Source: Chlorobiaceae bacterium
GTDB taxonomy: Bacteria > Bacteroidota > Chlorobiia > Chlorobiales > Chlorobiaceae
Direction: 5' to 3'
Length of the DNA stretch: 32,770 nucleotides
NCBI GenBank assembly: GCA_013334925.1
Contig: JAAXWP010000003.1
Location: 1 to 32,770, forward strand
The position numbers and the translations under genes are program-made. Below, piece by piece: positions 7,263-23,436 of this stretch (within the stretch, counting starts at the first letter, position 1; every line of letters starts with the position of its first letter). The notes beneath the pieces are model-generated. The model was not told the DNA's origin. It did no database searches and saw nothing but the letters and a program-made list of their open reading frames with translations.

Positions 7263-7380
7263 AGAGATGGACGGAATGGACAAAGAGTTCATGGACGACA
7301 TGGACGCTATGGACCCTGAAAGAGCAAAATACCAGGTAATGCGCGAATAGTGTCCATTCCGTCCATTAAGTCCATCCTCT
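7263..7380. repeat. TGGAC-rich intergenic element with 15-bp inverted repeat
   Basis: ATGGACGGAATGGAC (7267-7281) is an exact inverted copy of GTCCATTCCGTCCAT (7352-7366). Between them are further ATGGAC copies. The first 20 bases recur with one mismatch at 19715-19734. No believable gene is present. With the tRNA and the heptamers below, this accounts for the 7030-7451 gap. Confidence 0.8.
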
Positions 7381-7413: not shown

Positions 7414-7426
7414 CTACCATTTTCCC

Positions 7427-7445
7427 GTCACTTGTCACTTGTCAC
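7427..7445. repeat. Heptamer tandem repeat beside the mutL stop
   Basis: Two copies of GTCACTT and a partial third run up to 7 bases from the mutL stop codon. The same 7-bp unit recurs at the end of sdhE (22564-22596). Confidence 0.8.
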
Positions 7446-9481: not shown

Positions 9482-9544
9482 CACTCAGCACTCATCACTC
9501 ACAATTCAGCATTCATCACTCAGCATTCATCACTCAGCACTCAC
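9482..9544. repeat. Nine heptamers (CAYTCAN) running into the cinA stop codon
   Basis: From 9482 the sequence runs as nine consecutive 7-base units such as CACTCAG, CACTCAT and CATTCAT. The last unit contains TCA at 9541-9543, which read on the minus strand is the TGA stop of cinA. The wider gap 9333-9481 holds looser versions of the same words and no gene. Confidence 0.85.
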
Positions 9545-13420: not shown

Positions 13421-13471
13421 GGGTGGGTTCAATGGACCTATAGGTCTTATGGGTCCTATGGGTCCCATAAG
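13421..13471. repeat. GGGTCCTAT intergenic element with hairpin
   Basis: CTTATGGG (13446-13453) pairs with CCCATAAG (13464-13471). The word TATGGGTCCTAT (13448-13459) recurs exactly at 22438-22449, and both copies lead into runs of CCATCTGACC-like sequence. Confidence 0.7.
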
Positions 13472-13472
13472 A

Positions 13473-13815
13473 CTCATCCGTCACATCTGACCCATCCGGC
13501 CCATCCGACCCATCTAACTCATCCGTCACATCCGTCACATCCGACCCCTCTGACCCATCCGTCACATCTGACCCATCCGTCCCATCTGACCCATCCGTCA
13601 CATCCGACCCATCTGTCACATCTGACCCATCTGTCACATCCGACCCATCTGACTCATCCGACTCATCCGACCCATCCGACTCATCCGACCCATCCGTCAC
13701 ATCCGACTCATCCGACTCATCCGACTCATCCGACCCATCCGACTCATCCGACTCATCCGACTCATCCGACCCATCTGACCCATCCGTCCCATCCGTCACA
13801 TCCGTCACATCCGAC
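13473..13815. repeat. Nonamer tandem array, about 38 units
   Basis: A degenerate 9-bp repeat (units such as CATCCGACT, CATCCGACC, CATCCGTCA, CATCTGACC) fills most of the gap between thrA and atpG. Because 9 is a multiple of 3, both strands stay open over long stretches and would encode (S/T)D(E/G/V) or THPSHP tripeptide repeats. No ribosome site or start supports a gene. The remainder of 13298-13893 holds the thrA leader and the atpG terminator. Confidence 0.92.
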
Positions 13816-13834
13816 CCATCTCCCCTTCCCCCCC

Positions 13835-22426: not shown

Positions 22427-22510
22427 CCCATGGATCGTATGGGTCCTATAAGACGTATGAGACCCATCTGACCTATCTGACCCATAGGACATGTATGACC
22501 TGTATGACTG
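22427..22510. repeat. GGGTCCTAT intergenic element between hemE and sdhE
   Basis: Contains TATGGGTCCTAT (22438-22449), identical to 13448-13459, followed by CCCATCTGACCTATCTGACC-like units of about 10 bases. The 22282-22578 gap has no gene; it also includes the hemE leader and the heptamer array below. Confidence 0.7.
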
Positions 22511-22563
22511 GATTTTCAGATGGAGAAAGGCCTGCCGCCTTCAAGGATTCTCACGATCAGGCC

Positions 22564-22596
22564 GTCACTCGTCACTCGTCACTTGTTACTCGTCAC
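22564..22596. repeat. Heptamer array overlapping the sdhE 3' end
   Basis: GTCACTC, GTCACTC, GTCACTT, GTTACTC and GTCAC follow one another without gaps. The sdhE stop (22579-22581) and its last five codons lie inside the array. Confidence 0.88.
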
Positions 22597-23436
22597 GATA
22601 TGCCGTTTGATGCCAAGCTGGCGATCGGAATAGCCGAGTGCAAGTCCTACGATTTCGGAAAGATGGAAAACGGGGATCGAGCCACGCAAGCCGTTTTTCT
22701 TCAGGGCTTTCGACTGATAACCGTCAAGCACGGTATGGCAGAGCGGACAAGGGGTGACGATGCAGTCCGCTTTTTCGTCCATGGCCTCCTTCAGAGCCTC
22801 TGCAGCAACGTTGAGAGACTCCTCTTCGGCAACGAGGAGCGTATGGAATCCGCAGCACCGGTTTTTATGCTCATAAGCGATGGTGCTCCCGCCAAGAGCA
22901 TCGAGCAGCTGGTCAAGTGAGGTAGGTTCAAGGGGATTGTCCTTTCCGAGTACCGTGGAGGGCCTGAGAATATGACACCCGTAAAACGGCGCAATACGTA
23001 ATCTGCCGAGCGGCGTTTTGACCTTCGCGCGAATGGCGCCGAGCCCGACATCATCGATCAGCACCCAGAGCAGGTGACGCACTTCCGATGTGCCCCGATA
23101 CTCGAGCCCCTCCTTTTTCAGCAGCTCGTTCACCTCGTCCCTGAGCTCCTTCGATTCATCCAGCTTTTTCTTGGCGCTGCGGATGGTCATGAGGCAGGTG
23201 TTGCAGGAGACCACCAGGTCCAGGCCCAGCTTCTCGGCTGCCGCGATATTGCGAGCATTGACCAGGGCGAAATGCTTGGGGCTCACGTAGTCGAGGTTGC
23301 TGCCTCCGCAGCAGGTGCTCTCATGCAGCTTGACCATCTCTATGCCGAGATCGTGCTGCCAGAGCTGGATCGACCGGTCGACCTCTTTGGTCATCGATTC
23401 GTTGATACAGCTCTGGTAATAAGCGTAACGCTTCAT
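22579..23436 (-). CDS. sdhE: SdhE-type subunit with two CCG domains (HdrB-like)
   Basis: The quinone-side subunit of E-type succinate:quinone reductases and methylmenaquinol:fumarate reductases, replacing transmembrane cytochrome b anchors. 285 residues with no membrane helix. Two cysteine-rich CCG modules are plain: Cys10, Cys42-Cys43, Cys78, Cys81, and Cys154, Cys194-Cys195, Cys230, Cys233. The first fits the CX31-38CCGX33-38CX2C consensus exactly; the second has a slightly longer first spacer (39). It starts 4 bases after sdhB in the order sdhA-sdhB-sdhE. In a green sulfur bacterium the enzyme would reduce fumarate in the reductive TCA cycle. The last five residues (VTSNK) come from a heptamer repeat. 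Confidence 0.88.
   Translation of the reverse strand: MKRYAYYQSCINESMTKEVDRSIQLWQHDLGIEMVKLHESTCCGGSNLDYVSPKHFALVNARNIAAAEKLGLDLVVSCNTCLMTIRSAKKKLDESKELRDEVNELLKKEGLEYRGTSEVRHLLWVLIDDVGLGAIRAKVKTPLGRLRIAPFYGCHILRPSTVLGKDNPLEPTSLDQLLDALGGSTIAYEHKNRCCGFHTLLVAEEESLNVAAEALKEAMDEKADCIVTPCPLCHTVLDGYQSKALKKNGLRGSIPVFHLSEIVGLALGYSDRQLGIKRHIVTSNK

Follow-up and report, generated by a model that had tools for sequence, protein, structure and literature searches.

A heptamer repeat of a genome-wide family probably displaced the native stop codon of an sdhE-like gene in a Chlorobaculum-related bacterium

Results

The gene described here lies in a 32,770-nt stretch of DNA (the window, by which we mean that whole stretch) from a draft assembly of 2.73 Mb in 101 contigs, whose genome we judged, going by its nearest named relatives, to fall within or near the genus Chlorobaculum. 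On the minus strand, positions 22579-23436 encode an SdhE/HdrB-like protein of 285 aa that carries Pfam CCG domains and whose gene is preceded by SdhA-like and SdhB-like genes. The SdhE of 8-methylmenaquinol:fumarate reductase and HdrB (PDB 8rvu and 5odc) have this CCG-domain subunit in common with it, alignable over residues 3-284. The best NCBIfam model was the MFR anchor SdhE (NF042965; full-length match, 254 bits) and the second best HdrB (TIGR03288; 211 bits), but the window protein scores under the equivalog cutoff of both (500 and 345, respectively). With these matches and this gene neighbourhood, sdhE is a fair name for it.

A tandem array of the 7-mer CGTCACT (4.9 copies, TRF score 54) spans positions 22563-22596 of the plus strand, across the end of sdhE. 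On the coding strand the region reads CATATC, followed by the units GTGACGA, GTAACAA, GTGACGA and GTGACGA, then by GTGACG and GCCTGA. The four complete units (22569-22596, minus strand; 4 x 7 = 28 bp) represent the added sequence, which shifts the frame by +1, and the third of them contains the new stop codon, TGA, at 22579-22581. The open reading frame thereby ends in HIVTSNK-stop, the codons V-T-S-N-K occupying 22596-22582 and the stop 22581-22579; the last 18 nt of the gene (22596-22579) are all array sequence. This confirms the initial annotation in that the array overlaps the coding region and supplies its final codons and stop.

To place this ending among its relatives, 80 homologous loci were retrieved, and a partly overlapping set of 29 from genomes within the family was compared. 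Homologues in Chlorobaculum end in HIVT-stop or HIVT(A/V/G)-stop, and those in Chlorobium mostly in HIV(S/T/C/G)-stop, and no heptamer array was found at the sdhE coding end in any of the 29 other Chlorobiaceae loci. Since array-free relatives end in this manner, the V and T of VTSNK are ancestral; all five residues are indeed encoded by the repeat, as first proposed, but only S-N-K are new. The C-terminal comparison yielded no array-free homologue with an identical VTSNK tail, as expected if the array supplied it. A homologue without an array from Chloroherpetonaceae (L099) ends in HIVSLSK-stop, which is superficially similar.

It had also been suggested that the original end of sdhE was replaced by the array. 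We found instead that it was displaced: the native end GTG ACG GCC TGA (GTGACGGCCTGA, V-T-A-stop) persists out of frame at 22568-22557 (minus strand), shifted 28 bp downstream, with its stop now at 22559-22557, and matches the end of the L128 orthologue. The sequence immediately following the array, GTGACGGCCTGATCG, also closes the gene in this array-free relative (CATATCGTGACGGCCTGATCG), and GCCTGATCG is found in L121 and L123 as well. When the four units were removed in silico, the gene ended in HIVTA-stop and encoded 283 aa. Because the relic matches the L128 end and removal of the units restores HIVTA-stop, the 28 bp were gained inside or beside GTGACG. Loss of the native end by replacement or recombination was ruled out, as that end is still there. 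The weak point of the parallel is that the GCCTGA relic fits other Chlorobaculum better than the nearest relative: the three relatives studied in most detail (G006, G018 and G010) terminate in GCATAA, ACCTGA and GCGTAA, respectively. The identity of the relic spans only 15-16 nt, six of which are common to the repeat.

The altered tail is predicted to lie outside the conserved fold. In a fold model of SdhE built on a 26-sequence alignment (mean pLDDT 88), no segment but residues 280-285 falls below a pLDDT of 50, and H279 is the last nearly invariant residue of the protein.

The heptamer at sdhE belongs to a family, with the unit variants GTGACGA, GTGACAA and GTGATGA, that is expanded in this genome. 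A three-unit pattern, with up to 2 mismatches allowed, gave 288 matches, as compared with none for the reversed control, so the sdhE array is not a chance occurrence; in a survey across the family, three-unit matches numbered 268 here and 0-12 in each of 85 other Chlorobiaceae. Two further heptamer arrays of the window have the polarity of the gene they follow: a (GTGACAA)n array 6 nt past the mutL stop (7425-7445, minus strand), followed by a GTAGGGGCACGGCGTGCCGTGCCC palindrome, and a GTGCTGA/GTGATGA array that starts at the cinA stop codon (9482-9543, minus strand). Arrays vary between species, and the orthologous genes are mostly without them.

Other repeats were seen in the same settings. 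A nonamer array between sdhE and hemE (22445-22508, minus strand) belongs to a separate repeat family; it and further nonamer arrays of the window (13437-13820 and 7290-7375), of the GGATGGGTC / ATGGACNNN type, lie behind genes with coding-strand polarity, and the one behind an atpG-like gene (end 13894) comes after an intrinsic-terminator-like hairpin. A palindrome starting with GTAGGGGCACGGC occurs some 10-20 nt past several heptamer arrays (window 7417-7393, minus strand; L148, L149, L152 and L188); the 13 bases of GTAGGGGCACGGC are present in 11 copies in 565 kb, and the palindrome may be a REP-like or other small mobile element. In the sister species, orthologue ends carry other units at or near the stop, namely TAGTTGA (L221, L230) and TGGATAA (L210), all in G010, and ATGGACNNN in G018 (L216, L226); some sister-species arrays, at these same loci, supply the stop codon.

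We consider it very likely that the heptamer family put four units into the GTGACG of V281-T282, displacing the native stop at the price of a near-neutral change in the tail. The genome-wide family, GTGAYRA on the coding strand, would have placed these units two codons before the native stop, converting CATATC-GTGACG-GCC-TGA into CATATC-(heptamer)4-GTGACG-GCC-TGA. The 28-bp gain would shift the frame, and the TGA of the unit would come into frame within 18 nt; SdhE would drop Ala283, acquire Ser-Asn-Lys and then terminate, outside the conserved fold. The S-N-K tail is probably close to neutral, while these residues could alternatively be mildly harmful or useful. Array-encoded tails occur at other genes of the same genome, too (SDK at L142, ESDE at L143, QSDE at L150, ADDE at L154 and TSDE at L156).

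As to where the units came from, copying from other genomic arrays by way of the GTGACG microhomology seems likelier than slippage confined to the native sequence, given that the unit's A at position 7 is absent natively and the arrays share one consensus. The usual account for such repeats is purely local: the native GTGACG would be duplicated in place, stepwise, its seventh base having mutated to A before the expansion, with no part played by outside arrays, and a gain that divides exactly by 7, bordered on either side by GTGACG, is what this account would predict. Yet the native base 7 is G (GTGACGG), all four units have A, like most arrays genome-wide, and one consensus recurs across arrays at unrelated genes whose native ends differ; we therefore find local slippage unlikely, though it is the strongest of the alternatives.

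We queried G006, G018 and G010 with the joined C-terminal segments of 20 array-bearing genes. GTGAC was present near the stop in 21/60 orthologues of array-bearing genes as compared with 5/101 other genes (p = 1e-6), a test that is partly dependent in that some orthologues may hold one or two units by descent. Antisense GTGAC near the stop showed no difference (3 and 3, among the 60 and 101 genes). Genes ending in GTGA were also commoner among array genes (7/17 versus 27/194; p = 0.009). From these two enrichments, and from the other arrays found at the same place, we infer growth at pre-existing words near stops. The TGA stop in itself was rejected as the target, being no more frequent in array genes than in others (12/17 versus 131/194; p = 1).

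In loci picked around arrays, the majority start no more than 18 nt to either side of the stop codon of a gene on the same strand. To depend less on loci picked for their arrays, the position of arrays relative to genes was examined in 565 kb of stretches that include the window and lie on contigs known from array matches, a choice that biases density upward and leaves position and polarity unbiased; genes were called by a simple codon score, which missed some real genes (cinA). Period-7 arrays were found in 19/228 3' flanks versus 1/232 5' flanks (p = 1.3e-5), and period-9 arrays in 9 versus 0 (p = 0.0017). In convergent spacers, the G-rich strand of every heptamer (10/10) and nonamer (7/7) array coincided with the coding strand of whichever gene lay nearer, and none of the 43 divergent gaps in the 565 kb held a heptamer array. 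Tandem gaps were less uniform, with 4 of 11 heptamer arrays antisense, three of these at a distance of 82-113 nt from the stop, the fourth weak and of another unit. Convergent spacers frequently hold two opposed arrays, one per gene end (L144, L160, L161, L143 and L184). A general strand skew of 3' flanks was rejected as the cause of the polarity, as array-free flanks have a mean skew of 0.00-0.01.

Such non-random placement and polarity, in flanks that lack GC skew when no array is present, would be expected if arrays were selected at the 3' ends of genes for a function in RNA or transcription, sdhE being one served site. The polarity of the nonamers is not explained by stop content, because they have no obligatory stops. 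Against this stands the species-specificity of the arrays, usually missing from orthologues, and their unremarkable RNA fold: neither sense nor antisense arrays were clearly more stable than shuffled sequences as terminator-like structures (z -1.5 to +1.2). We hold selection for such a function to be rather improbable, slightly more so than local slippage. Less probable again, and offered as speculation, is a joint reading in which the Chlorobaculum 7-mers RTGAYRA and the unrelated 9-mers ATGGACNNN/ATGGGTCNN are both kept behind genes, G-rich strand coding, for a putative role. One candidate role, only an idea, is that the C-rich, weakly folded antisense transcript resembles a Rho utilisation site and would halt backward transcription into the gene; a Rho gene is present.

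The initial annotation further proposed that changes in array length would alter the protein tail, which implies a phase-variable (contingency) repeat switching SdhE through changes of frame. A 7-bp unit that is no multiple of 3 and overlaps a coding region might suggest as much. Because 7 and 3 have no common factor, however, the unit in sense orientation brings TGA into all three frames within 21 nt, and arrays of at least two units therefore reach the same stop codon. In silico deletions, duplications and arrays of 0-8 pure units bore this out: with at least two units the product always ended in VTS(D/N)(E/K)-stop at 285 aa, whereas a single unit gave a 299-aa read-through and zero units the native 283 aa. 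Array length thus affects the tail for one or zero units and through small N/D and K/E swaps, but protein length stays constant from two units on. This enumeration ruled out array length as a frame switch for SdhE; the product did not switch with copy number in silico, the conserved part was truncated in no state, and sdhE encodes a core respiratory subunit, all of which leaves phase variation highly improbable. An assembly artefact is equally hard to credit: although the draft has 101 contigs and several longer arrays sit at contig ends or beside runs of N, the sdhE array has ordered unit variants and a consistent native relic, and ordinary reads should span it, as it covers 34 bp only, between unique flanks.

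Discussion

Heptamer direct repeats with comparable properties are known. Repeats of TAACTGA have been described in marine Beggiatoaceae, cyanobacteria and Bacteroidetes (MacGregor 2015, PMC4679880); they contain stops in three forward frames, and in one genome 13 sets overlap the stop of the upstream gene, with a limit of 18 nt and the tail LITDN-stop (PMC4679880). The arrays described here are likewise dispersed 7-bp direct repeats with three-frame stops, and they keep to the same 18-nt limit: the overlap is exactly 18 nt at sdhE (VTSNK-stop, as compared with LITDN-stop) and 11, 4 and 1 nt at other genes. They differ in the unit, which is GTGACGA/GTGACAA/GTGATGA and not TAACTGA. They also differ in position, since the BOGUAY TAACTGA sets are mostly found just upstream of start codons (PMC4679880), whereas the present arrays lie just past stops on the coding strand, convergent spacers included, and none occurs in the divergent spacers sampled.

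Among prokaryotes, heptanucleotide long simple sequence repeats (LSSRs) have been reported (Mrazek and co-workers, cited in PMC4679880), as have (GATAGRA)n satellites in Chloroflexus (PMC6749651). As far as the available parts of these accounts go, they too concern a lineage-specific heptamer expansion scattered genome-wide, and with many arrays of one 7-bp unit, restricted to a lineage, the present family belongs to the dispersed heptanucleotide LSSR class; gene-end polarity and displaced native stops are not described in those parts. With the contingency repeats of Haemophilus influenzae (PMC2651432), to judge from the available portion of that account, the sdhE array shares a short tandem repeat whose unit length is indivisible by 3 and which touches coding sequence, but it is self-terminating, lies at a dispensable tail and does not switch the protein with copy number. 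A search of the open-licence literature found no papers on Chlorobaculum tandem arrays of this kind. The gene-end polarity seen here is a variant on the known heptamer-repeat kind.

The sdhE array offers a snapshot of a frameshifting repeat entering a core gene with little effect, the old stop still legible beside the new one. The gene-end polarity of the two families is more interesting than this local event. That two repeat families share this polarity behind genes, and that related species show it with different units, is a regularity in want of a cause, which would be either a copying process steered by words located at stop codons or a role at the ends of transcripts.
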